Shown here: positions 22,697-61,386 of the stretch, in pieces
How the letters are laid out: each line of letters starts with the position of its first letter
How positions within the stretch are numbered: position 1 is the first letter of the stretch
Assembly: GCF_034008315.1 (NCBI RefSeq)
Contig: NZ_CP125377.1
Location: forward strand, 4,214,501 to 4,278,500
From: Pseudomonas sp. P8_241
Lineage (GTDB): Bacteria; Pseudomonadota; Gammaproteobacteria; Pseudomonadales; Pseudomonadaceae
DNA: 64,000 bases
Direction: 5' to 3'
Position numbers and translations under genes: made by a program
The notes under the pieces: generated by a model
Databases searched by the model: none
Told to the model about the DNA's origin: nothing
What the model saw: only the letters and a program-made list of their open reading frames with translations

Positions 22697-25209
<2,513 letters not shown>

Positions 25210-49312: not shown

Positions 49313-49696
49313 ATGAAAAAAGCCGATCTGACGCTGCTGTTCGCCCTTTGTCTGACTGCTGTCTTGAGTGCCCACGCCGACGACGCGCCGATGCAAACCG
49401 ACAGCTACAGCAGCGAGTTCAACTATTACGGCGCCGACCAGCCCTTTGCCCATCCTGTCCCGCCGAGCATCAGCACGGTGCCGCCGGGGGCGTACATCCC
49501 CACCTCGCCCGGTGATTTCATTCCGGTTTCAAGCGAGCACGTGTTTTCCGACTCGCGCCTGCCCACGGTGGCCGATGCCACCGTTCGCGTGTTCATCCGC
49601 TCCTATGATCCAGAGCGCGGCATCTACGTGAACCAGGAAGTCGACGATCCCGGTTGCGTGCAGGCGTGCTTAAGACAAGGCCCGCTGATGCAGTGA
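49313..49696 (+). CDS. Small secreted protein of unknown function next to mnxR
   Basis: The protein has 127 residues from ATG 49313. Signal peptide MKKADLTLLFALCLTAVLSA, HA. The mature part is proline- and tyrosine-rich (YYGADQPFAHPVPPSISTVP, GAYIPTSPGD), then VRVFIRSYDPERGIYVNQEV and two cysteines in DPGCVQACL. No family recognised. Its stop is 3 bases from the end of the convergent sigma-54 regulator. Cys pair and PPxAYIP pattern could suit a periplasmic or matrix-associated protein. Confidence 0.7.
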   Translation: MKKADLTLLFALCLTAVLSAHADDAPMQTDSYSSEFNYYGADQPFAHPVPPSISTVPPGAYIPTSPGDFIPVSSEHVFSDSRLPTVADATVRVFIRSYDPERGIYVNQEVDDPGCVQACLRQGPLMQ

Positions 49697-49699
49697 GTT

Positions 49700-51130
49700 C
49701 TACCACTGGCGTTTGTCCGGACGCGCCAGGCCGAGCTTTTCAATCCGGTAACGCAGCATGTCGCGACTCAGGCCCAACAGGCGCGCCGATTTGGTGACGT
49801 TCCAGTCGGTCTTGTCGAGCATCTTGCGCACCATGTCACGTTCAACTTCCGGCAGGTTCATCGACTCGGTGCCGTTGTAGGACGGTCGCTGATCGCTGGG
49901 CGGCATCTCATGCTGAAACATCGGCGGCTCGTCCACCAGGCTCAGGCAGACGTTCAGTTGATGGGCGGCAACCGTGTCGCTTTGCGCCAGCAACACGGTT
50001 TGCTCCAGCATGTTGCGCAATTCCCGCACGTTGCCCGGCCAGCTGTAGCTGAGCAGCAGCTCTTCGGCCTGGTCGCTGAAATGCAGGTTCGGCTTGCCGT
50101 AGCGCTTGCCATGGGTGGCCAGAAAGTGCCGGGCCAGCAGCAGGATGTCAGCGCCTCGGGCATACAGACGCGGGACCTTGATCGAAATGATGCGCAGGCG
50201 GAAAAACAGATCGCGACGGAATTTTCCTTGCTGAACCATTTGCTCGAGGTTGCAGTTGGTGGCGCTGATCACCCGCAGGTCGACCTTGCGTTCCTTCACC
50301 GAGCCAACCCGGCGAATGGTCCGGTCTTCCAGCAGTTTGAGCAGTTTGGCTTGCAGCAGCAGGTCCATTTCACCAATTTCATCGAGAAACAGCGTGCCGC
50401 CGTCGGCGGCTTCCACCAACCCGAGTCGACGATCCTTGGCGTCGGTAAAGGCGCCCTTCTCATGCCCGAACAGTTCCGACTCCACCAGATTGGAGGGGAT
50501 GGAGGCACAGTTGAATTCAATGAACGGGCCTTTGCTGCGCGGCCCGTCAAAGTGCAGTGCCCGGGCCACCAGTTCCTTGCCGGTGCCCGTCTCGCCTTCG
50601 ACGAGCACGGGCGGCAGATCACTGTTGGCCATGCGCCGCTCGGCGTCGAGCAACTGGGCGATGGTGCCCTTGAGGTAAGCCATCGGCGCCGACTCGCCAA
50701 TCAATGCCTGCACCCCGGATTTCTGGGCTTCGCGCTCCTGATAGAACGACAGCGTGCGCTCCATGCGGTCCGTGGCCAGCGCCTTGTCGAGTAACAGCTT
50801 GAGCTCCGGCAGAGCCACCGGTTTGGTCACGTAATGGAAAGCGCCCTCTTTCATCGCGACCACGGCGTCTTCGACGTTGCCATAGCCGGTCATCATGATC
50901 ACTTTCAGATCCGGCGCGCTGATGCGCAACTTCTGGATCAGGTCGTGACCACTCATGCCCGGCAACGAGTTGTCGGTCAGTACCACGTCCGGAAGGAAAG
51001 AACCCAATTGCTCCAGTGCGTCTTCAGCCGAATGGCAGACGGTCACCTCGAAGTCCTTTCGCTCCAGGTAGGTCTGAATATTCCCGGCAAGGATTTCGTC
51101 ATCCTCGACCAGCAGAATGCTGTGCTCCAT
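49700..51130 (-). CDS. mnxR: Sigma-54-dependent response regulator, MnxR-like (NtrC family)
   Basis: The protein has 476 residues behind GGAGGGGAAT. Receiver domain: ILLVEDDEILAGNIQTYLER, phospho-aspartate in VVLTDNSLPGMSG, lysine in YVTKPVALPE. AAA+ domain: Walker A VEGETGTGKELVARALHF, the sigma-54 contact motif as GAFTDA (usual form GAFTGA), Walker B DGGTLFLDEIGEMD. C-terminal Fis-type helix-turn-helix: TKSARLLGLSRDMLRYRIEK. It overlaps the kinase gene by 32 bases. The arrangement with two related kinases around a SCO1 gene matches my recollection of MnxR, the activator of Mn(II) oxidation in P. putida GB-1. The name rests on context and architecture. Confidence 0.8.
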   Translation of the reverse strand: MEHSILLVEDDEILAGNIQTYLERKDFEVTVCHSAEDALEQLGSFLPDVVLTDNSLPGMSGHDLIQKLRISAPDLKVIMMTGYGNVEDAVVAMKEGAFHYVTKPVALPELKLLLDKALATDRMERTLSFYQEREAQKSGVQALIGESAPMAYLKGTIAQLLDAERRMANSDLPPVLVEGETGTGKELVARALHFDGPRSKGPFIEFNCASIPSNLVESELFGHEKGAFTDAKDRRLGLVEAADGGTLFLDEIGEMDLLLQAKLLKLLEDRTIRRVGSVKERKVDLRVISATNCNLEQMVQQGKFRRDLFFRLRIISIKVPRLYARGADILLLARHFLATHGKRYGKPNLHFSDQAEELLLSYSWPGNVRELRNMLEQTVLLAQSDTVAAHQLNVCLSLVDEPPMFQHEMPPSDQRPSYNGTESMNLPEVERDMVRKMLDKTDWNVTKSARLLGLSRDMLRYRIEKLGLARPDKRQW

Positions 51131-52592
51131 ATTCCCCTCCCGATGCCACTTTGAAATTGAGACACACGCGGGTTCCTTCCTGCTCTTGACTGGTCAGTTC
51201 GACCGAGCCTTCAAAACGCTCCATTATTCTTTTGACCAATGCCAGGCCGACGCCCAACCCGCCTTGCTTGGTGGTAAAAAACGGCTTGAAGACCATTTGC
51301 TGCTGCTGCCTGGACATGCCCTTGCCGGTATCGGTCAGGGCCATGCGCAGCGTCCCGGGGCTGGGCGAATCGATATCGATCGTCAACACTCCGCCCTTGG
51401 GCATCGCCTCCAGCGCATTGGCAAACAGGCTATTGAGAATTTGCGTCAGCAGCACCTGTTGGCTGACGACCGGTGGAACACTTTGCGGGGTGAACCGTAC
51501 TTCGACGTTAGAACGCCTGATCAAGGGTTCGAAGGCACTCAAGGTATCTTCGAGCGCCAGGCTCAGATCGACCGTCTCATGGTCGTCATTCATCGGCCGC
51601 AACGACATCAGCAAATCGCGGACCCAACGCGACATTCGGTCCACCTGGCTGATGATGTCGCCAATATTCTTCTGCGCGGTCTGGCTGGCGATTTCCTGGG
51701 CCAGTTCGGCGCTGGAGCGGATATTGGCCAGTGGATTGCGCAGGCTGTGCGCGACGGCCGAGGACATTTCCCCGAGGGCGACAAAGGTTTCGTTGGCAAT
51801 CAATTGTTTCTGCTGGCTCTGCAGGAGCATGGCTGCGCGGCGCACAATCCAGAACAATCCCAGGTAAATCGCCGCCCCACCGATCAGGGTGGCCAGCCAG
51901 ATCGACTTGAAACCCCGCTGGATACGCGCAATCAGATCCCGAGGCTCCTTGTAGATTTCCACCATGGCAATCACTTTGCTGCGGTCGGCGTTGAACATCG
52001 GGATGTAATTTTCGATGAACAGATACTCGGGCTCGCGCAGCAAACGCTGTTCCGGACGCTCTTCGTCGATCTCGTGGTAACTGGTGGACACGGCCTCTTT
52101 CATTTCGAAGGATTCGTCGAGTTCATCATCGTCCTTGATACGTACGCCGATCAGCTCGGGATTGGTCGACCAGACCACCGTGCGGTCCAGGGCGTACACC
52201 GTCGCCAGCAAAATGTCCGGCAGGTGTTCCACATGGTCGAGAAACTCCACACGCGAAGACGCTCGGGCTGCCGGGCTGACATCGGGATAGGCATTGTCGT
52301 CACGCGGGTCGAGCATTTCACCCATGGTCCGGTTCGGGGTGATTCCGGCATGGCGTATCTCTGCTGCACCGATGGCTTGTATGAACTGCGCCGTCAGCAT
52401 CGAATCACGCTCGATGCTTTCATCCACCACAAAACGCGTGGAGATATAACCCAGCCCCAGCGCTACCCCAGCGATGATCAAAAAGCTTGCCAGGGAAAAC
52501 CAGCGCAACAGATTGAACTGCGGGCGCCATCCCTTGCGTTGCGCTGGCGGCAGTTGCGGCGCAGGTACTTTTTCTTGTTCCAGCATCTGCAT
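51099..52592 (-). CDS. Sensor histidine kinase, MnxS-like (operon partner of mnxR)
   Basis: The protein has 497 residues behind AGGACACCCCC. Membrane segment at about 30-50 (FSLASFLIIAGVALGLGYIS), a periplasmic domain of about 185 residues (TRFVVDESIERDSMLTAQFI), a second segment near 238-257, then the HisKA dimer domain with EMSSAVAHSLRNPLANIRSS (phospho-histidine). The HATPase has the N-box (NALEAMPKGG), DTGKGMSRQQQQ and GGLGVGLALVKRIMERFEGS. There is no PAS or HAMP. It is a clear paralogue of the kinase at 53977, most alike in the kinase core and TM1 region. A sigma-54 promoter lies 69 bases upstream of its start, implying positive autoregulation by the regulator encoded behind it. Confidence 0.9.
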   Translation of the reverse strand: MQMLEQEKVPAPQLPPAQRKGWRPQFNLLRWFSLASFLIIAGVALGLGYISTRFVVDESIERDSMLTAQFIQAIGAAEIRHAGITPNRTMGEMLDPRDDNAYPDVSPAARASSRVEFLDHVEHLPDILLATVYALDRTVVWSTNPELIGVRIKDDDELDESFEMKEAVSTSYHEIDEERPEQRLLREPEYLFIENYIPMFNADRSKVIAMVEIYKEPRDLIARIQRGFKSIWLATLIGGAAIYLGLFWIVRRAAMLLQSQQKQLIANETFVALGEMSSAVAHSLRNPLANIRSSAELAQEIASQTAQKNIGDIISQVDRMSRWVRDLLMSLRPMNDDHETVDLSLALEDTLSAFEPLIRRSNVEVRFTPQSVPPVVSQQVLLTQILNSLFANALEAMPKGGVLTIDIDSPSPGTLRMALTDTGKGMSRQQQQMVFKPFFTTKQGGLGVGLALVKRIMERFEGSVELTSQEQEGTRVCLNFKVASGGEYGAQHSAGRG

Positions 52593-52660
52593 GGGGGTGT
52601 CCTGGGGTCCTGGAAATCCAGCCTTTTCAGCCGCTTCGAATCAGTGTAGGTAACATTGAT

Positions 52661-52676
52661 AGCAATTGAATGGCCA
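52661..52676 (-). promoter_or_regulatory. Sigma-54 promoter of the kinase-mnxR operon
   Basis: On the reverse strand TGGCCATTCAATTGCT fits TGGCAC-N5-TTGCW with exact GG-N10-GC spacing. It lies in the 101-base gap between the SCO1 gene and the kinase, 69 bases before the kinase ATG. Confidence 0.7.
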
Positions 52677-52693
52677 ACGTAAGTATTTCGACA

Positions 52694-53818
52694 CTATTGC
52701 ACCTGCGTCATGTCCTTGGGTGCGACTGCATGATGATGCTCTTGCTCATCGTTACCACTGGCCAGTGGTGTCACCGGCGGATGCTGGCGATCGGTTTCTG
52801 CCTGCAGAAATTCGATGATCGACTGAGCCGAATGCTCATCGATGCGCAAGTTGGGCATCGGGATCTTGTTGAAGCGCTCGAACATTTGCATCGCAATCGG
52901 GTCTTTTTCCGCCAGCATGCGGTCCGGCTCACGGATCCAGCGGTTGAGCCAGGCCGGATCGCGTTGACGGGTCACGCCGATCAGGTCCGGGCCGATGCTG
53001 CGCAGTCCGATGCCCTGTCCGTCCATTGGCCCCAGGCTGTGACACGACGCGCAGCGGGTGCGGAACAGTTCTTCGCCATTGCTCGGCGGGCGAATTTGCG
53101 GCGCATTGGCGTAGCTTTCTGAAACGCTCTGCTGCTTCCAGTTATGCAAGGTGTTGGCCAGCTGGTCCGCCAGAATCCAGGGGTTCTCGAACGGCGATGC
53201 TTTCATCCAGCGCCCCGTGGCCTGGTTGCCGACGATCAGGCTCAAGTTGTGGTCCTTGCTGCGTCCGTTATCGACGCCTTCGATGAACAATCCGAGTTTC
53301 TGCCGCAGTTCGGTGACGTCGGCAAACTCCCCGGTGAGGAACTGCCAGCCCGGTCCGACCTGGAAACGTTGCGAGTAAGCCTTGAGCACCTCGGGTGTGT
53401 CGCTCAAGGGATCGATGCTGATGGAGTAAAAGAAGATGTCCTTGCCGACCCGATCCCCCAGCAGCTTCTGCACCTGGCGCAGACGCGCGGTTTCCAGCGG
53501 GCAGGAGTCACTGCACGAGGTGAAGATGAAATTGATCACCACCACCTTGCCCTTGATCATGTCATCGAAAAAATGCACCTGCCGACCGTCCTGATCGGTC
53601 AACAGCGTGTTGGGAAAGTAGTCGGCACCCCACGGCGTGGCGGAGTCGACGACAGCTGTAGAAGGCGGCTCGGCGACCGGTGCGGGTGTGGGCGGCGCTG
53701 GGTTGGCGACTAGCATGCGGCTCGCCAGCAACCCGGTCACCAGCACCAATATGAGGTGCATACCCAAGGCACGAGCGCGCGGAGTTTGCTTCGCCAGGTC
53801 GAGCGCTTTTTTGTCCAT
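52694..53818 (-). CDS. SCO1/SenC-cytochrome c fusion protein
   Basis: The protein has 374 residues from ATG 53818. An N-terminal membrane anchor (ALGMHLILVLVTGLLASRML) and a proline-rich linker precede a thioredoxin-fold SCO domain (about residues 65-230). Its copper/thiol motif is FTSCSDSCPLETAR, and the distal histidine lies in KDHNLSLIVG. A c-type cytochrome domain follows: heme site RCASCHSLGP, and methionine ligand candidates in IPMPNLR. The C-terminus is histidine-rich (EHHHAVAP). Both domains face the periplasm. SCO proteins deliver copper or act as thiol-redox factors. Here, between two Mnx-like kinases and behind its own sigma-54 promoter, a role in redox sensing or copper loading of a multicopper Mn oxidase is plausible. 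Confidence 0.88.
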   Translation of the reverse strand: MDKKALDLAKQTPRARALGMHLILVLVTGLLASRMLVANPAPPTPAPVAEPPSTAVVDSATPWGADYFPNTLLTDQDGRQVHFFDDMIKGKVVVINFIFTSCSDSCPLETARLRQVQKLLGDRVGKDIFFYSISIDPLSDTPEVLKAYSQRFQVGPGWQFLTGEFADVTELRQKLGLFIEGVDNGRSKDHNLSLIVGNQATGRWMKASPFENPWILADQLANTLHNWKQQSVSESYANAPQIRPPSNGEELFRTRCASCHSLGPMDGQGIGLRSIGPDLIGVTRQRDPAWLNRWIREPDRMLAEKDPIAMQMFERFNKIPMPNLRIDEHSAQSIIEFLQAETDRQHPPVTPLASGNDEQEHHHAVAPKDMTQVQ

Positions 53819-53859
53819 CACCAGCCGCCTCGAAGTCGTGAAGGGGGTGCTGGTGGTTT

Positions 53860-53875
53860 TGCAAGGATCTCGCCA
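53860..53875 (-). promoter_or_regulatory. Sigma-54 promoter of the SCO1-cytochrome c gene
   Basis: On the reverse strand TGGCGAGATCCTTGCA fits the -24/-12 consensus with exact GG-N10-GC spacing, 42 bases before the ATG. About 100 bases upstream, CCCGTTAACGGG (53973-53984) is a perfect 12-bp palindrome, and TCCCCAGTC / TCCCCAAGTC repeats lie between, so activator sites may be here. Confidence 0.72.
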
Positions 53876-53976
53876 GATTTGTAACCGGCTTATACAAATT
53901 TGTTTACACAACCAAAACAATGGCTTAACAACATCAAACTGCCATGACTTGGGGACCGACTGGGGATTGGCACCCG

Positions 53977-55449
53977 TTAACGGGGAGAATTCATACCCTT
54001 TTCAGGGGCAACCAACGTAAACGACAGGCGCACAGAGGTGCCCTCGCCCTCATGGCTGTTCAGCGTCACCGTACCGCCAAACCGCTCCATGATCCGCTTG
54101 ACCAATACCAGTCCGACGCCAAGCCCACCCTGCTTGGTGGTAAAGAAAGGGCGGAATGCCATGCGGCGCTGTTCCTCGGTCATCCCTTTGCCGGTGTCGC
54201 TGACCACCAGGCTCACCCGCTGAGCGTTGATCGGTTCTATCTTAAGGGTCAGGGTGCCGCCACGGTCCATGGCCTCCACCGCATTCGACAGCAGACTGTT
54301 GAGGATCTGCGTGAGCTGCACGTGTTGGCTCAGCACCATGGGAGTCTGTTCCGGCAGGAATTCGACACGGACCTTGGCCTTGGTGATTTGATACTCGTAG
54401 GCCATCAGGCTGTCATGCAGCGCTGCCACCAGATTGACCGGTTCGGGATCGTCGTTGAGCGGACGCAGGGATTGCAGCAACTCCCGTACCCATTTGGACA
54501 TGCGATCGACCTGGCCGATGATGTCGTTGATGTTCTTGTGCGCGGGCCCGGTGTCGAACTCCAGCGCCAGTTCGGCGCTGGAACGGATGGTCGCCAACGG
54601 ATTGCGCAAGCTGTGGGCCACCGCCGATGACATCTCGCCCAACGCCACAAACGTCTCATTGGTGATCAGTTGTTTTTGCTGCTCTGCCAGCAAAATCGCA
54701 GCGCGCCGCACGATCCAGTACAGGCCCAGGTAAATCAGGCCGCCGCCCAGGGCAGTGGCCAACCAGATCATCACCAACCCGCGCTCCATTCGGTTGATCA
54801 GGTCTTGCGGTTCTTTATAGATTTCGACCATGGCCGTGACCGTGCTGCCATCAGCGTCGAACAACGGAATGTAGTTCTCGATGAAAATGTATTCAGGGGG
54901 CACTACAAACTTTTGCTCCATGCGGGTCTTGTCGACATCGTGATAACTGGCCGACACCGGCGTCTTGGAGATGAACGCCCGATTGAGGTCGTCGTCGGCA
55001 TGAATCGTGGTGCCCATCAGAGACGGATTGGTCGACCAGATCACCATGCGGTCGGGGGCATAGATGTTGGCCAGGATCACGTCGGGCAGGTGCTCGATAT
55101 GGTCCAGAAATTCGCCTCGGGCACTGGCCCGGGCCAGTGGGTCAACGTCGGGAAAGTCGCGGTCCTTTCGCGGATCGAGCAATTCGCCCATGGTCCGCAC
55201 GTTGGGGATCGACACATGCCGCACCTCCGCCGCGGCAATCGCCTGAATGAATTGCGAGGTCAGTAACGCATCACGTTGCACGCTTTCGGTGATGACAAAA
55301 CGCGTCGAAACCGCCCCCAACGCCACGGCGACCGTGCCGATCACCGCCATGCTGATCAACGAAAACCAGCGCAACAGATTGAACGGCTGCTTGCGCGTAC
55401 TCAGGCGAATTTCGCTGTCGGACGGAAGTGCATCGGCAATTGTATTCAT
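53977..55449 (-). CDS. Sensor histidine kinase, second MnxS-like paralogue
   Basis: The protein has 490 residues from ATG 55449 (MNTIADALPSDSEIRL) after GAGAACC; in-frame ATGs at 55488 and 55473 are less well placed. Same plan as the kinase at 51099: membrane segment (RWFSLISMAVIGTVAVALGA), periplasmic domain, second segment, EMSSAVAHSLRNPLATIRSS, NAVEAMDRGG, DTGKGMTEEQRR and GGLGVGLVLVKRIMERFGGT. The shared TRFVxxESxxRD core next to TM1 shows the two arose by duplication, while the rest of the sensor region has diverged. In P. putida GB-1 the two kinases act in one pathway to the same regulator. It is convergently separated from nothing; its 5' end faces the fibre operon. Confidence 0.88.
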   Translation of the reverse strand: MNTIADALPSDSEIRLSTRKQPFNLLRWFSLISMAVIGTVAVALGAVSTRFVITESVQRDALLTSQFIQAIAAAEVRHVSIPNVRTMGELLDPRKDRDFPDVDPLARASARGEFLDHIEHLPDVILANIYAPDRMVIWSTNPSLMGTTIHADDDLNRAFISKTPVSASYHDVDKTRMEQKFVVPPEYIFIENYIPLFDADGSTVTAMVEIYKEPQDLINRMERGLVMIWLATALGGGLIYLGLYWIVRRAAILLAEQQKQLITNETFVALGEMSSAVAHSLRNPLATIRSSAELALEFDTGPAHKNINDIIGQVDRMSKWVRELLQSLRPLNDDPEPVNLVAALHDSLMAYEYQITKAKVRVEFLPEQTPMVLSQHVQLTQILNSLLSNAVEAMDRGGTLTLKIEPINAQRVSLVVSDTGKGMTEEQRRMAFRPFFTTKQGGLGVGLVLVKRIMERFGGTVTLNSHEGEGTSVRLSFTLVAPEKGMNSPR

Positions 55450-55654
55450 CGAGTGGTTCTCGGTAGACCCCATAGCTTTATAGCCCACTCATGGCGGATT
55501 GCCCCAATTCGGGTAATGCCTTTCCGCACCTCCCCCGCTCTCCCAATCCACCCCCAAACCTGGGGACAGTGGCCCTTTAGCGAAATCGCTGACTTGCTCC
55601 CCGACGCGCCCCGCAGGCCCGTGACGCGGGCACTTCGAGGCTGTTTTTACAAAT

Positions 55655-55670
55655 TGGTATGGAAGTTGCC
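55655..55670 (+). promoter_or_regulatory. Sigma-54 promoter of the curli-like fibre operon
   Basis: TGGTATGGAAGTTGCC has GG at 55656-55657 and GC at 55668-55669 with exactly 10 bases between, and TTGC at -12. It lies 58 bases before the first gene. About 100 bases upstream CCCCA-AACC-TGGGG (55550-55563) is an inverted repeat that could bind an activator. A TGGGGAC core also occurs upstream of the SCO1 promoter. Confidence 0.75.
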
Positions 55671-55727
55671 GAAGTCCTGTCAACTGGCCCATATCAAGGG
55701 ACAGGTACTCTGATAGAGGGAATACTC

Positions 55728-57074
55728 ATGCACCCTTTACTGTCGAAAACCGCGATCGCCTTGATCGTTACCGCTTTTGCCCAAGGCGCTGCCCAGGCGG
55801 CGCTGTTTGCTGTTGACCCCGGACCCTACCTGCCTGCCAATGGGAGCTTCGCCTCCTGGTACCAGGACACCCATGGCAGAACCCTCGATCTATGCCTGTC
55901 CAAGGCTGTCAGTTCTCGCGTCCCAAGTGCGCCGGGCGCCCCCACTTACATGTGCAATTTGCTGCCGACCCCCGGCGTATTTGACGACGCGCAACCGATC
56001 GTTTTCCCGACCAACTTTCCCGACGAAGCGTTCTGGTTTACCGCCGATGGCGCGATTGTCGATGCGGCCCGAGGCATTGACCTGACCTACGTGTCGGCCA
56101 TCGAAGCCGCGTTCGCCGCTGAAGAACCCGTCGAAGGTGACCAGGTCAGCTTCGCCCGTATCCGCATTCGCGTCGACGTGCCTACCGCCGGCACCTATAT
56201 CATCACTCACCCTTACGGCGTCGACGTCTTCAACATCGATACTCCTGGGCGCCGCGCCATCAACATGACTCGAGACATCGGCATCGGCACGCCGAAAACC
56301 TACGACGGCGCCCTCAAGGGTGACATCGGTCCGTTCCTGCGCAGTGTCAACGGCCCCTACACCGAAACCAATCCGCTCACCGGTACCGCTGAACAATTCG
56401 TTGGCGACCCGAACCTCTCGGAAGCTGTCACCGGCAGTCCGTTCAACACCAACTTCATCCGCATCGAAGGCCCCAATGGCCTGGACTTGCGTACCGACGC
56501 CTTCGCCGTTTCCGGCAAGTTGTCGACTGTCGTGCGGCCGACGCCCGTCATTGCCGAACGCAGCACGTATTCGCGCAAAGCCGGCGCCAGCGCTCCGGTG
56601 GCCCAGCAGGACGTGTTCGTCATGGCACCACCGGCGCCTGCCACCGTGACCCTGGACAGCAACAGCCCGGTGTTGAACCTGATTGAAGCCAACACCACGG
56701 GCCACTGGTACACCCAGTCCCCTGAAAACCCGACGTTGCCAAGCATGTTGCAAGTCACCGCTGACAACCACGTGGCTATTGCCAGCAGCACTCCGACCAC
56801 GATTGCCATGCCCTTGACTGACCTGGTGGTGATCTCACGTGCCGAGTACAGCCTGAGCAGCGGGCTTATCACGATTGTGGCCTCGACCAGCGATGAAACC
56901 TCACCACCGGTGCTCACCGCCACCACCGGCACTGGCGTCGCCATCGGCGCGTTGAGCGGTGACGGCGCAGTGAAAAGCCTGGCCACCGGCATCACGCCGA
57001 ATCCGCCAGCCAGGGTCCATGTGTCGTCTTCCAATGGCGGCGGCGACACCGAAGAAGTGGTCATCGTGCAATGA
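55728..57074 (+). CDS. Secreted protein, first of two paralogues in the fibre operon
   Basis: The protein has 448 residues from ATG 55728 after AGAGGGAAT. Signal peptide ends AQGAAQA. The mature N-terminus FAVDPGPYLPANGSFASWYQ is followed by SSRV, YMCNLLPTPGVFDDAQPIVF, EAFWFTADG, RIRIRVDVPTAGTYIITHPY and TGSPFNTNFIRIEGPNG. All of these recur almost word for word in the protein at 57110 over about 330 residues. The last 150 residues are beta-rich (VVISRAEYSLSSGLITIVAS) and end TEEVVIVQ. No database family comes to mind. It is likely an extracellular or surface beta protein, secreted through Sec, made together with the curli-like subunits. Confidence 0.75.
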   Translation: MHPLLSKTAIALIVTAFAQGAAQAALFAVDPGPYLPANGSFASWYQDTHGRTLDLCLSKAVSSRVPSAPGAPTYMCNLLPTPGVFDDAQPIVFPTNFPDEAFWFTADGAIVDAARGIDLTYVSAIEAAFAAEEPVEGDQVSFARIRIRVDVPTAGTYIITHPYGVDVFNIDTPGRRAINMTRDIGIGTPKTYDGALKGDIGPFLRSVNGPYTETNPLTGTAEQFVGDPNLSEAVTGSPFNTNFIRIEGPNGLDLRTDAFAVSGKLSTVVRPTPVIAERSTYSRKAGASAPVAQQDVFVMAPPAPATVTLDSNSPVLNLIEANTTGHWYTQSPENPTLPSMLQVTADNHVAIASSTPTTIAMPLTDLVVISRAEYSLSSGLITIVASTSDETSPPVLTATTGTGVAIGALSGDGAVKSLATGITPNPPARVHVSSSNGGGDTEEVVIVQ

Positions 57075-57109
57075 ACGCTCACATGCCCAGATCCTCATCA
57101 GGAGGCATC

Positions 57110-59338
57110 ATGAACAATTGGCCACGCCTGGCGCTCAACGCCCTGGGACTGACTCTATCGCTGTCCGGCAGTGCATTCGCGCAACTCGCTGCCGTCGACC
57201 CCGGCCCCTACACCTTCGCCACGGGGAAATTCCCCATGTGGTATCAGGACACCAACAATCTTTCGATGGAATTGTGCCAATCACGGGCGGCGAGTTCGCG
57301 GGTAGCGGTCAGCGTGCCACCGGCTTACATGTGCACCCTGCTGCCGGAACCTGGTGTGTACGACGACACCCAGCCCATGGTGTTCCCTGACAACTGGCCA
57401 CCGGAAGCCTTCTGGTTCCTGGCCGAGACGAACATCCCCAACAACGGCGCCGGCTACGGCATGGACGTCTACGTGGCCGGTATCGAAGCGGCATTCGCCT
57501 CGGAAAACCCGGTCGATGGCGATCAGCAAAGTTTCGCGCGGATCCGTATCCGCGTGAACGTGCCCACTGCGGGCACCTACACCATCACTCACCCGTACGG
57601 CGTGGAAACGGTCAACGTCACCACACCGGGACGCCGCGCCATCAACATCACCAAGGACATCGGCATCGGCGCTCCGGGCAATTTCAGCGGCGCCGTGGGC
57701 GGTGCAATCGGGCCGTTCCTGAAAAGTGTCAACGCGCCCTACACCGAAGTGAACCCGGACACCGGCGCCGTCGAAACCTACGTCGGCGATCCGAACCTCA
57801 CTGAAGCCGTCACCGGCAGCCCGTTCAACACCAACTTCGTGCGCATCGTGGGCCCGGCCGGGACCATCCAGACCAACCTGTTCACGGTGGCCGGCAAGGT
57901 GCTCGACAGCCGGGCGCAGACGCCGGTGGAAATCGACCGTGCCTCTTATCGCCGCACCGGAGCCGGAACCCGCGTAGAGGTCTTTGCCAAGTCAGGCAAC
58001 AGCTCGAGCTTGTGCTTCCGCGAATCCGTCGCCCTTGTCCCCGGACCGCCACCAACGCCGTGCCAGACCACTATGTGGGGCGACGACCATGGCCAGTTCT
58101 TCGCTAATCGCCTGTTCACCGGCAACGTGCCTCCAGTTGTTGTGGTCACCGCGACCAACCCGGCCGGCACCACTCGTCCCACGGCTGTCTCGAGCAAGCT
58201 CAGCGACATCGTGAAAATCCAGACGGCTCGCTACGACTGGAACAATCACAGCCTGCTGATCGAAGCCACGTCCTCCGATGAAACCGTGGTTCCGGATATG
58301 GTCGCCCAGGGCTTCGGACGCCTGTCGAAGAATGGCACCCTGCAACGCCTGACTGTCTCCGATCTGCCCCAACCACCGGCCACTGTCACGGTCAAATCGG
58401 CGGCGGGCGGCGCGGACACAGAAGCTGTCGTGGTGGCTGGTTCGGCACCGGACACCGGCGAGAACCGGGCGCCGATCGCGGTCTCTGATGCTGGCTCCAC
58501 CGGCTTCGGGGTACCGGTCACCCTCAACCTGCTGGCCAACGACAATGACCCGGATGGCGACACGCCGCTGAGCATCACGGAGCTGACTCCACCGGCCGCA
58601 GGCCAGGGCACCGTGGCATTGAGCGGTACGACTGCGGTGGTCTATACCCCGCCGGCCGTTGTCAACGGATTGCTGACCACAACCTTCACCTACAAGGCGA
58701 TGGACGCCAAAGGCCTGGCCTCGAGCACTGCGGCGACCGTGACCGTCACCGTTGCGCCTAACCAGTCTCCGGTGGCCGTGGTCGACAACATCTCGGTGCA
58801 GGGCTCATCGCCAATCACGATCAACGTGCTGGCCAACGACACGGATCCGGAGGGCAACGTACCGCTGGCGGTCGCCAGTGTCACCCCACCGGCGGCAGGG
58901 CGCGGCACGGTAAGCATCAGTGGTGCGGCCGTCGTCTACACCCCGCCGGCAACGATCCTGGCACCGTTCACCACGACCTTCACCTACGTCGCCCGGGACA
59001 GCTTCGGCGCCCTGTCGGCACCGGCCACGGTCACCGTGCAAGTGTCGCCAGCCGTGGTCCTGGAAGTGTTCAACGTAACGGCGTCCTCGGTCACTGCCCG
59101 TGCCGGAGGCCGCTTTACCTGGGCCTTCACCGGTACGTCGTCGGCGCTCCTCGGTAACTCGGTCACCATCCAGGTCACCACGCCGACCGGGTTGGTCACC
59201 CTCGGCACCGTCCCTGTGGCGATTACCGGGCGCTGGACCATGAACCTGACCAACGCGGTCGTTCCATCGGTCAACCCGACGGCAACCATCCGTTCCGCCG
59301 CCGGCTCCGTGCGCAACGTCGCGGTCACCGTGCAGTAA
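57110..59338 (+). CDS. Secreted protein with cadherin/Ig-like repeats, second paralogue in the fibre operon
   Basis: The protein has 742 residues from ATG 57110 after GGAGG. Signal peptide ends SGSAFA. Residues about 25-340 repeat the domain of its upstream neighbour (AAVDPGPYTFATGKFPMWYQ, YMCTLLPEPGVYDDTQPMVF, THPYGVETVNVTTPGRRAIN). A beta-rich segment follows (NNHSLLIEATSSDETVVPDM). Then two tandem cadherin-like/Ig-like units start NRAPIAVSD (about 450) and NQSPVAVVD (about 551), with NLLANDNDPDGD and NVLANDTDPEGN calcium-type motifs. A final beta domain of about 100 residues follows. There are no retention signals. It looks like an adhesive matrix protein, perhaps bridging cells and the amyloid fibres encoded next. 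Confidence 0.78.
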   Translation: MNNWPRLALNALGLTLSLSGSAFAQLAAVDPGPYTFATGKFPMWYQDTNNLSMELCQSRAASSRVAVSVPPAYMCTLLPEPGVYDDTQPMVFPDNWPPEAFWFLAETNIPNNGAGYGMDVYVAGIEAAFASENPVDGDQQSFARIRIRVNVPTAGTYTITHPYGVETVNVTTPGRRAINITKDIGIGAPGNFSGAVGGAIGPFLKSVNAPYTEVNPDTGAVETYVGDPNLTEAVTGSPFNTNFVRIVGPAGTIQTNLFTVAGKVLDSRAQTPVEIDRASYRRTGAGTRVEVFAKSGNSSSLCFRESVALVPGPPPTPCQTTMWGDDHGQFFANRLFTGNVPPVVVVTATNPAGTTRPTAVSSKLSDIVKIQTARYDWNNHSLLIEATSSDETVVPDMVAQGFGRLSKNGTLQRLTVSDLPQPPATVTVKSAAGGADTEAVVVAGSAPDTGENRAPIAVSDAGSTGFGVPVTLNLLANDNDPDGDTPLSITELTPPAAGQGTVALSGTTAVVYTPPAVVNGLLTTTFTYKAMDAKGLASSTAATVTVTVAPNQSPVAVVDNISVQGSSPITINVLANDTDPEGNVPLAVASVTPPAAGRGTVSISGAAVVYTPPATILAPFTTTFTYVARDSFGALSAPATVTVQVSPAVVLEVFNVTASSVTARAGGRFTWAFTGTSSALLGNSVTIQVTTPTGLVTLGTVPVAITGRWTMNLTNAVVPSVNPTATIRSAAGSVRNVAVTVQ

Positions 59339-59398
59339 CCGCTTGCCCCACCGGCCGGTACAGCCGGTGGGGCAAGCCTTCAACCCAAGGACTTCGCC

Positions 59399-59860
59399 AT
59401 GAAAACGTCGACCGCTGCCCTGCTCTGCCTGCTTCTGCTCTGCAGCAGTGCTGGCGTGCGCGCCGATGACTTGATGGAAAACGAAGACCTCGGCCCCGGT
59501 GGCGATCTCGGTGAGTTGCCACCACCCATAGGCCAACACGCTCTGATCGATCAGAACGGGCAGGCCAACCTCGCGCTGTTGCAACAGAACGGTCAGTCGT
59601 TGCTCGGCACCATTGTCCAGTCGGGCAGCAACCAGGAGGCTTATATCCTGCAACAAGGGAATGACCTGATGGCCATGATCAACCAGCAAGGTTCCGGCAA
59701 CGCCGCCTCGATTACCCAGAACGGCAGCCATAACCGCGCGCAGATTTCCCAGAACGGCAACAACAACGACGCCAGCATCGAACAGGCCGGCGCGGGGCTG
59801 CAAAGCGCCGTGACCCAGTCCGGGAACGGCATGAGCGTTTCGGTCAAACAGTATCGCTAA
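59399..59860 (+). CDS. Curli-like (CsgB-like) repeat protein
   Basis: The protein has 153 residues with signal peptide ending GVRA. After an acidic leader (DDLMENEDLGPGGDLGELPP) come about eight imperfect curlin repeats of the form Q-x-G-x4-N-x5-Q: IDQNGQANLALLQQNGQS, INQQGSGNAASITQNGSHNR and ISQNGNNNDASIEQ. It ends with a basic SVKQYR tail, recalling the C-terminal repeat of the nucleator CsgB. Size fits CsgA/CsgB (about 150). It lies directly before the giant curlin-repeat protein with a 27-base gap, so nucleator plus fibre subunit is the natural reading. csgE, csgF and csgG are not in the window. Confidence 0.82.
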   Translation: MKTSTAALLCLLLLCSSAGVRADDLMENEDLGPGGDLGELPPPIGQHALIDQNGQANLALLQQNGQSLLGTIVQSGSNQEAYILQQGNDLMAMINQQGSGNAASITQNGSHNRAQISQNGNNNDASIEQAGAGLQSAVTQSGNGMSVSVKQYR

Positions 59861-59887
59861 AGCACTGCACCACCTGGAGGTTTCATC

Positions 59888-61336
59888 ATGTTCAAATTGA
59901 CGCCCATTACCGCCGCCATCCTGGTCATTGTCAGTGCCCAGGCGATGGCTGACGACAGCCTGTCCAACCAGGACCAGGTCGGGACAGCCAACATCGCCGA
60001 TGTGAAGCAGAACCTGGCCCCGTTCAGTACCGCCACCCAACAGCAGTTCGGGGAAGGTAATGATGCGGCCGCCGTGCAGGATAACGCGAGCAGCACCATC
60101 GACCAGACGCAGATCGGTGATTTCAACGCCGGCTACGCCGAACAGCTTTACGAGAACGGCAGCACTATCACCCAACAACAATCGGGCACCACTAACGTCA
60201 GCCACGCCAGTCAGTCGATCGGCGTGGGTAGCAGCGAAGCATTGCAACAACAACAGGGCAACGGCAACTTCTCTTTCATCTATCAGGACAGTCAGGACGG
60301 CACGTCGGCCAAGAGTTTGCAGTTCGGTGACTTCAACGAAACCAACATCGAACAAATGGAGGTAGGCGTTGGCAATAACGCGCAAATCCAGCAGAGCGGC
60401 AACTTCAACTACGGCACCGCCGAGCAGGTGTTCCACAACGGAGGCCAGATCGGCATCGACCAGACCGGTGACGGCAACTATGCCTATGGCGATCAGCGCA
60501 ATGGTGAGGGCGGCAACGTGGCCATCAACCAGTTTGGCAACGGCAACGGCACCGAGGTCTGGCAGGAAAGCCAGCTTCCCAGCGAAGCCGCCGTCAACCA
60601 GATTGGTAACAGCAACGAAACAGTGGTCGACCAGAGTTACGGCGAAAGCAACGTGGCCCAAGTGCTGCAAGTGGGTGATCTGAACGCGATCTACGCCGAC
60701 CAGTTCGAGTCGATCGGCTCGACGGTCGCGCTGTACCAAGAGGGCACCGGCAACGTGCACTTCACCTATCAGAGTGGCGACAGTCACGTGCTCAATGCCA
60801 ACTCGGTGGGTGACGGCAACAAGGTCTATGCCAGCAATTGGAAGGGCCCGCAAGCCGGCGGTCAGTTCGGTACCGGCCAACGTGCAACCATCAACCAGAA
60901 CGGCAACGAAAACATCGCCAACTTTACGCAGAATGGCGAGGGCCATATCGTCACGACCAATCAGAGCGGTACTGGCAACAAAACCACGATCAGCCAGGCT
61001 GACTCTTACAACGAGCTGTATTTCGACCAGAACGGCTCCGACAACATCCTGATCTCCGATCAGCGTGGTACCACCAACCTGGCCGTCGGCACCACCAGCG
61101 GAACCGGCAACACCACCGAGTTCGACCAGTCCGGCACCGGAAACCTGGCCAATACCACCCAGCTGTATGGCAGCGACAACATGATCACTGTCAAACAGGC
61201 TGACACCATGAACGTGGCCTATGTCACCCAGGGCGGCACCGGCAACATCGCCAGCGTCGATCAGAGTGGCATGACCCAGACTGCCAACGTGCAGCAATAT
61301 GGATCGGCCAACCAGGCAACCGTGTTGCAGCAGTAA
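59888..61336 (+). CDS. Giant curli-like repeat protein (fibre subunit candidate)
   Basis: The protein has 482 residues behind GGAGG, with a signal peptide ending AQAMA. The whole mature protein is made of curlin-type repeats of 16-23 residues; I count about 27. Examples are QIGDFNAGYAEQLYENG, QTGDGNYAYGDQRNGEGG, QIGNSNETVVDQSYGESN and SGTGNLANTTQLYGSDN. It ends with YGSANQATVLQQ. E. coli CsgA has five such repeats, so this is several times longer. There are almost no charged clusters or cysteines. By analogy it should form a beta-solenoid amyloid outside the cell. It is followed at once by a terminator, so it closes the sigma-54 operon. Confidence 0.85.
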   Translation: MFKLTPITAAILVIVSAQAMADDSLSNQDQVGTANIADVKQNLAPFSTATQQQFGEGNDAAAVQDNASSTIDQTQIGDFNAGYAEQLYENGSTITQQQSGTTNVSHASQSIGVGSSEALQQQQGNGNFSFIYQDSQDGTSAKSLQFGDFNETNIEQMEVGVGNNAQIQQSGNFNYGTAEQVFHNGGQIGIDQTGDGNYAYGDQRNGEGGNVAINQFGNGNGTEVWQESQLPSEAAVNQIGNSNETVVDQSYGESNVAQVLQVGDLNAIYADQFESIGSTVALYQEGTGNVHFTYQSGDSHVLNANSVGDGNKVYASNWKGPQAGGQFGTGQRATINQNGNENIANFTQNGEGHIVTTNQSGTGNKTTISQADSYNELYFDQNGSDNILISDQRGTTNLAVGTTSGTGNTTEFDQSGTGNLANTTQLYGSDNMITVKQADTMNVAYVTQGGTGNIASVDQSGMTQTANVQQYGSANQATVLQQ

Positions 61337-61348
61337 TTGCCAGGCATG

Positions 61349-61386
61349 AAAAACCGCGGCCCTTGGGAAGAGCCGCGGTTTTTTTT
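61349..61386 (+). terminator. Terminator of the curli-like operon
   Basis: AACCGCGGC (61352-61360) and GCCGCGGTT (61372-61380) with an 11-base loop, flanked by A's and a run of T's to 61386. Strong in both directions, 13 bases after the last stop. Confidence 0.9.

Follow-up and report, generated by a model that had tools for sequence, protein, structure and literature searches.

Regulators of manganese oxidation very probably also govern a curli-type fibre operon in many Pseudomonas

Do the regulators of bacterial manganese (Mn) oxidation also switch on the building of an amyloid coat? The question is raised by a locus of Pseudomonas sp. P8_241 in which the genes of an Mnx-type regulatory system, comprising two sensor kinases (MnxS1 and MnxS2) and the response regulator MnxR, lie beside a four-gene operon, F1-F2-csgB-csgA, that encodes two secreted proteins and two curli-like subunits and is here called the fibre operon. 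The locus sits in a stretch of 64,000 nucleotides (C1:4214501-4278500; the window, whose numbering is used below unless the contig is named) of a 6.39 Mb, single-contig genome, labelled G000 in our genome set. We compared it with 149 genomes of the genus (Gnnn), with 369 genomes from across the class, and with 80 named loci (Lnnn; 1.53 Mb in total) that were picked for encoding F1. A preliminary description of the window had assigned the fibre operon to the same sigma-54 regulon as Mnx, and the comparison makes this very probable: the two have an identical distribution, share a box at a near-fixed distance from the promoter, and keep the -24/-12 element even where the loci lie far apart. Judged from sequence, a curli-type fibre and its export machinery are in many Pseudomonas very probably activated by the regulators of Mn oxidation as well, and we give a probability of roughly 85% to a single MnxR/sigma-54 regulon that would span the oxidases, a secretion pathway, the curli channel and the fibre.

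Joint distribution of the fibre operon and the Mnx genes

With cut-offs of E<=1e-3 for F1 and E<=1e-60 for the MnxS1 kinase, each was found in 48 of the 149 genus genomes; the two sets are identical and neither gene was found alone (Fisher p 3e-40, kinship not corrected). At E<=1e-100, mnxG was present in 47 of these 48 genomes (G021 lacks it) and in none of the other 101. Homologues of mcoA occur in 46 genomes, 45 of them within the 48; G060, G062 and G130 have none, and G022 holds only a piece. Curlin repeats were detected in 50 genomes, namely 47 of the 48 Mnx-bearing ones and 3 of the 101 others. CsgG gave some match in 92 genomes, with strong matches in 46 of the 48 (all except G021 and G137; the match of G127 is in two pieces) and in G020, G068 and G115, while the best matches in the remaining genomes had E values of 5e-28 or worse. 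In the three Mnx-free genomes of this group the csg clusters carry neither F1 nor F2.

Such co-occurrence could also arise if the fibre operon simply travelled with an Mnx island while remaining under unrelated sigma-54 control of its own. Physical linkage is frequent, with the fibre operon and the kinase gene within 5 kb of each other in 32 of the 48 genomes, and in 30 of the 48 the fibre operon and mnxG share a contig at a distance of no more than 40 kb. Linkage alone does not account for the pattern, however, because in 11 of the 48 genomes F1 and the kinase lie 14 kb to 1.3 Mb apart on the same contig; in the remaining 5 they are on different contigs. The co-presence also holds across a greater distance in the window genome, where mnxG (C1:2466653-2472487) is 1.8 Mb away from the window locus.

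A palindromic box upstream of sigma-54 promoters

Sigma-54 regulons are recognised by a -24/-12 element together with an AAA+ activator that has an enhancer-like site about 80-200 bp upstream, and both are found here. A search for dyads shared by the regions upstream of the fibre operon brought out a palindromic box, CCCCA-N4-TGGGG, as a candidate enhancer site for MnxR. In the window it reads CCCCAAACCTGGGG (55552..55565), lies between mnxS1 and the fibre operon, and had been absent from the inventory of the preliminary description. It stands about 102 bp before the conserved -24/-12 promoter of the fibre operon, TTGGTATGGAAGTTGCC (55654..55670, + strand), whose -12 element is GC. In the genus set of fibre upstream regions (48 sequences from 47 genomes, with G076 omitted and two loci contributed by G002), the exact box is present in 41, against 1 of 1920 shuffled sequences. 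Its distance to the -24 element is 100-105 nt in 37 of these 41 and 89-91 nt in the other 4, a near-fixed spacing although the distance from promoter to gene varies. In the named loci, 65 of the 66 exact boxes fall within 400 nt upstream of F1 (6 of the 80 loci offer less than 400 nt of upstream sequence), compared with 6 of 4000 shuffled upstream regions.

The window genome contains four copies of the exact box: before mnxG, before an operon that joins secretion genes to csgEFG (just after a SurA-like gene), before the fibre operon, and at C1:1835000, about 350 nt before an uncharacterised open reading frame (ORF). The reversed pattern occurs three times. In the gap between mnxS1 and mnxS2, 12 of 14 genomes have a box (exact in 5) or a near-box 87-90 nt from the -24 site, and in G127 this spacing is 78. 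When the pieces of the system are dispersed, the box remains with them: it is exact in 10 of the 11 fibre operons that share a contig with the kinases at a distance of 14 kb to 1.3 Mb, and is retained at the separated fibre, secretion and mnxS1-mnxS2 loci of G102 and G104. This persistence at separated pieces, seen also in the window genome, speaks against an operon that only hitchhikes with the island, and we regard that explanation as highly improbable.

The preliminary description had placed three promoters of the form GG-N10-GC at 52661, 53860 and 55655. All three exist as written, and those at 55655 and 53860 are conserved, whereas the one at 52661 is not generally so. Matches to the promoter pattern were dropped as evidence in themselves, since the window holds 77 matches to TGGYAYG-N4-TTGC at up to 2 mismatches where 76.3 are expected by chance; the site at 55655 fits the pattern exactly, that at 53860 has 2 mismatches, and that at 52661 has more than 2 and falls outside the list. 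Conservation is more informative. A counterpart of the fibre promoter stands within 140 nt before F1, at 74-78 nt, in 78 of the 80 named loci, and at -75 to -110 in the genus set. Site scores in that set run from 16.2 to 21.0 and overlap those of shuffled sequences (mean 16.2, 95th percentile 18.2), so the weaker sites are supported by their constant position more than by their score. The promoter before the SCO gene (53860..53876, - strand) precedes mcoA in relatives that have mcoA in the cluster, such as G005, and a site scoring at least 18 follows mnxS1 in 70 of 71 named loci, against 52 of 1420 shuffles. For the weak, sigma-54-like site before mnxS2 (52661..52677, - strand; score 18.7), only 10 of 70 loci show an equivalent at -85 to -89, and any site of at least 18 within about 200 nt before mnxS2 is found in 15 of 70. 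The 39 mnxG genes examined have upstream sites scoring at least 19.2 (shuffled mean 16.6, 99th percentile 19.5).

These sites suggest a mechanism in which MnxS1 and MnxS2 would relay a signal to MnxR, and MnxR would bind the box some 90-110 bp before -24/-12 promoters and activate transcription with sigma-54 RNA polymerase. Its targets would be the mnxG operon, mcoA and/or SCO, the operon of type II-like secretion genes and csgEFG, and F1-F2-csgB-csgA. The cell would make its Mn oxidases together with a type II-like secretion pathway, the curli channel, and a curli fibre with two large surface proteins. In this scheme the role of MnxR as the box-binding protein, the resulting transcription and the amyloid nature of the coat are our inferences. 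MnxR probably also drives its own synthesis, since mnxS2-mnxR, or SCO-mnxS2-mnxR, is preceded by a promoter that has a box or imperfect boxes. Such activation of its own operon would constitute positive feedback and could underlie the bimodal activity that the accessible part of PMC11930936 reports for the mnxG and mcoA promoters of P. putida GB-1, which fits a feedback loop of this kind.

A different protein might bind the box instead, such as a further enhancer-binding protein or a factor tied to stationary phase or biofilms, with MnxR acting downstream on some promoters only. The box does occur upstream of mnxS1 and in the mnxS1-mnxS2 gap, where it would be expected were mnxSR itself a target, and a different sigma-54 activator, BrfA, is described in the available sections of PMC9207406 as controlling the Fap amyloid in P. 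fluorescens PF07. Autoregulation by MnxR accounts equally well for the boxes at mnxS and mnxR, however, and the box keeps company with Mnx: the csg clusters of the three Mnx-free genomes have no box, exact or at 11 of 12 letters, and exact boxes are commoner in Mnx-bearing genomes (median 5) than in others (median 3; Mann-Whitney p 1e-8). Two genomes hold 17 and 24 copies, which in G057 come from repeated sequence. On balance, control of the box by another regulator seems unlikely, and MnxR is our preferred candidate.

Several observations weigh against a single regulon under MnxR. The exact box is missing from 7 of the 48 genus fibre upstreams and from 15 of the 80 named loci, seven of which have a one-letter variant at 180-181. 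The -12 element of the fibre promoter is GT rather than GC in 23 of the 80 named loci (GC in 55) and in 11 of the 48 genus sequences. The mnxS1 gene has a box and no good sigma-54 site upstream. In G130, which has no mcoA between the kinases, the mnxS1-mnxS2 gap contains no box, and none accompanies the second csg clusters of G042 and G060 or the second mnxG-csg cluster of G087. At the SCO and mcoA promoters all boxes are imperfect; in the window these are TCCCCAAGTCATGGCA and TCCCCGTTAACGGGTG (53940..53986, - strand), before the SCO promoter. Recognition at mnxG appears looser as well, because only 9 of 39 mnxG genes are preceded by an exact box (22 of 39 under relaxed matching), at distances of 111-287. 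Finally, the Fisher value given above overstates independence because the genomes are related.

Gene content of the Mnx, fibre and secretion operons

The preliminary description had placed two paralogous kinases, a SCO-cytochrome c fusion, an NtrC-type regulator and a four-gene operon together, and domain scans confirmed all of these. MnxR (49700..51130, - strand) is an NtrC-family response regulator with receiver, sigma-54 AAA+ activation and Fis-type helix-turn-helix domains. The usual form of the loop by which such activators contact sigma-54 is GAFTGA; that of MnxR reads GAFTDA (50438-50455, residues 226-231), as it does in all 73 MnxR matches found among 84 loci. The two sensor histidine kinases, of the MnxS2 type (51099..52592, - strand) and the MnxS1 type (53977..55452, - strand), both have HisKA and HATPase domains and are 63% identical. 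Between them lies the SCO1/SenC-cytochrome c protein (52694..53818, - strand), which is assigned by domain matches and adjoins mcoA in many relatives. Convergent with mnxR is a gene for a small secreted protein (49313..49696, + strand; ORF from 49268, 142 aa), which has two cysteines close to the C-terminal end and matches no Pfam or NCBIfam family at E 0.01. Of the 69 named loci that have an mnxR match, 63 also have a match to this protein beside mnxR.

That this is an Mnx-type system, as had been proposed, is borne out by the presence of mnxG and an mcoA homologue in the genome and by the gene order, which is that of strains MS-1 and DSV-1 minus mcoA. According to the available sections of PMC11409713, both strains oxidise Mn, both have the order mnxS1-mcoA-SCO-mnxS2-mnxR, and MS-1 needs rpoN for Mn oxidation; the same order is found in many of the relatives that we examined. 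The names mnxG and mcoA rest on operon partners and on order as presented in that part of the account. Likeness to the Mnx system of P. putida GB-1, MS-1 and DSV-1, as judged by gene order and neighbours, extends to the two paralogous kinases, the NtrC-type regulator and their arrangement, including the position of mnxS2. Unlike MS-1 and DSV-1, the window has no mcoA between mnxS1 and SCO. An in-cluster mcoA, between mnxS2 and F1, is present in 50 of the 80 named loci and missing in the window and several relatives. At 53818-53977 the gene is gone, yet its promoter is kept before SCO; in L168 and L191 SCO is missing too, and a good sigma-54 site precedes mnxS2. The mcoA homologue of the window genome (C1:4313084-4315825) lies 34 kb past the window end and is 76% identical to the in-cluster McoA of G005. 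Elsewhere in the window, 22930-25197 encodes a 755-aa protein which, from its N-terminus, we take to resemble catalase-peroxidase. For Salinicola, a KatG that acts as an Mn(II) oxidase has been reported (PMC11573757, in the part available).

Divergent from mnxS1, the fibre operon begins with F1 (55728..57074, + strand), a secreted protein of 448 aa in which Pfam and NCBIfam scans found no known family, and for which a structure model of low overall confidence predicts a C-terminal Ig-like domain. Its paralogue F2 (57110..59338, + strand) is secreted, 49% identical to F1, and has added Big_9/cadherin-like repeats. The CsgB-like minor curlin (59399..59860, + strand; 153 aa) and the CsgA-like curlin (59888..61336, + strand; 482 aa) both match the curlin repeat, Curlin_rpt PF07012, above its cut-off; both score below the NCBIfam equivalog thresholds for CsgA and CsgB. 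In the CsgA-like protein we count about 20 repeats, mostly 22-24 residues apart; its computed isoelectric point is 4.05, and its sequence matches the solved curlin 8c50_A (E 8e-26). Named F1 homologues come from Pseudomonas with few exceptions, and among the 369 class genomes F1 was found in the window genome and in one weak match (65 residues, E 4.6e-4), so that at the search sensitivity used the family appears largely confined to Pseudomonas. One fibre locus, L202, is in a metagenome-assembled genome labelled, as deposited, Paucimonas. In G049 (C1:4391001-4409000; L223) stops and frameshifts interrupt the fibre genes and mcoA is reduced to remnants, while the box and the kinases remain.

The mnxG region was scanned for gene content partly in the window genome and partly in its relative G005. 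After mnxG come YVTN-like, two SCO, cytochrome/ABC and SurA-like genes, followed by a response regulator, a GspE-type ATPase, a T2SSM-like protein, a secretin and pseudopilins, and then csgE, csgF and csgG. CsgG and CsgF gave Pfam matches in the window genome; CsgE did so in G005 and has an equivalent open frame in G000. Because the csgE frame overlaps csgF by 4 nt in both genomes, csgEFG appears to close the secretion operon. A single island in G005 holds the mnxG operon, the secretion-csgEFG operon, the fibre operon on the opposite strand, and mnxS1-mcoA-SCO-mnxS2-mnxR. Many relatives share this one-island arrangement, which in the window genome is split between csgG and the fibre operon. 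G005 has 13 secretion-csg genes and 4 fibre genes, plus one doubtful small ORF, between the SurA gene and mnxS1. By the IMG numbers in Table 4 of PMC11409713, as far as that source is available, 17 genes lie in this interval in MS-1 and DSV-1, and to judge from the numbering this gap fits the 13 and 4 genes of G005.

Known systems and possible roles of the fibre

The fibre operon resembles the curli system (csgBA/csgEFG, type VIII secretion) in having curlin repeats in two subunits and CsgF and CsgG homologues in the genome. It differs from curli in its 482-aa CsgA-like subunit with so many repeats, in the additional F1 and F2, in having csgEFG as the last genes of a type II-like secretion operon, and in its predicted control by sigma-54 and MnxR. 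Those secretion genes invite comparison with Xcm, a Gsp-related pathway which, in work by de Vrind from 2003, reportedly secretes an Mn-oxidising factor of P. putida GB-1. With its GspE-type ATPase, T2SSM-like, secretin and pseudopilin genes, which follow the mnxG operon directly, the secretion operon here may be akin to Xcm; it differs in running on into csgEFG. A parallel for the regulation is the Fap amyloid operon of P. fluorescens PF07, which depends on RpoN and on BrfA, a sigma-54 activator encoded next to it; the amyloid genes and the activator are different ones, and Mn oxidation is not mentioned in the available sections (PMC9207406). The same sections list an RpoN-dependent four-gene cluster with no assigned function, D7M10_RS18830-15, which we considered as a conceivable counterpart of the fibre operon.

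The Mnx account in PMC11409713 names mnxG, mcoA, mopA and mnxSR with their operon partners, and the terms curli, amyloid, secretion and xcm do not occur in its available sections. The accessible part of PMC3056050 treats csgEFG, csgAB and Mn oxidation by P. putida in separate, unlinked sections, and the word curli does not occur in PMC8218464, PMC9634551 or PMC8360965. Among the papers listed by searches of the open PMC literature, as far as their texts were available, no link of MnxR or Mn oxidation to the control of curli was found.

The preliminary description had also suggested that the amyloid matrix might be the scaffold on which oxide forms. In such a dedicated, genetically encoded mineralisation matrix an Mn-related signal would lead MnxR to co-express the oxidases, the export pathway, the curli channel, an acidic curli fibre and F1/F2, oxide would be deposited on the fibre and thus around the cell, and autoactivation would confine the programme to an all-or-none subpopulation. 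We hold this possibility only tentatively, as less likely than not, and the idea of a scaffold has been weakened, though not refuted, by the loss of curlins in some lineages. Nine named loci have F2 without curlin genes, of which seven are left once L132 and L165, with less than 500 nt beyond F2, are set aside; six of these (L133, L134, L135, L137, L140 and L208) carry mnxS/R, and L153 does not reach that region. In G021, which is probably the same genome as L134, mnxG and csgG are lost and mcoA homologues are kept, and one block deletion could explain these losses. G137 has kept mnxG and has no csgG match, a single curlin-repeat match, and csgB in pieces. Because of the curlin-less loci with mnxS/R and F1/F2, together with G021 and G137, F1 and F2 appear to be the most tightly kept partners of MnxSR, and the curlins appear losable.

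Alternatively, the regulon may be as proposed and its purpose different, with F1/F2 and curli forming a general biofilm matrix that has no role in oxide nucleation. The loci that retain mnxS/R and F1/F2 without curlins favour such a matrix, as does the activity of the mnxG and mcoA promoters in stationary phase, with Mn required (PMC11930936, in the part available). A tighter link to oxidation is indicated by csgEFG, which tails the secretion operon after the mnxG operon, and by G087 (C4:272001-292000; L216), where a second, divergent mnxG (75% identical, with a YVTN partner) lies directly beside a csgE-csgF-curlin-csgG-curlin cluster. That stretch, a separate case of mnxG beside curli, has no mnxS/R match. 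We place the general matrix a little short of an even chance.

The reason for bacterial Mn oxidation and its regulation are still described as unknown in the accessible part of PMC11930936. Likewise, Dueholm and colleagues noted in 2012 that csgD is missing near the csg operons of Pseudomonas except in P. stutzeri and suspected other regulators (PMC3521004, available sections). The MnxR/sigma-54 regulon proposed here would bring these two questions, the control of curli in Pseudomonas and the control of Mn oxidation, to meet at one locus, and a defined box, regulator and set of target operons make both directly testable. The box also provides a means of searching for other members of the Mn-oxidation regulon. 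If the shared switch is true, mineral formation in these bacteria would be tied to the building of an amyloid coat.

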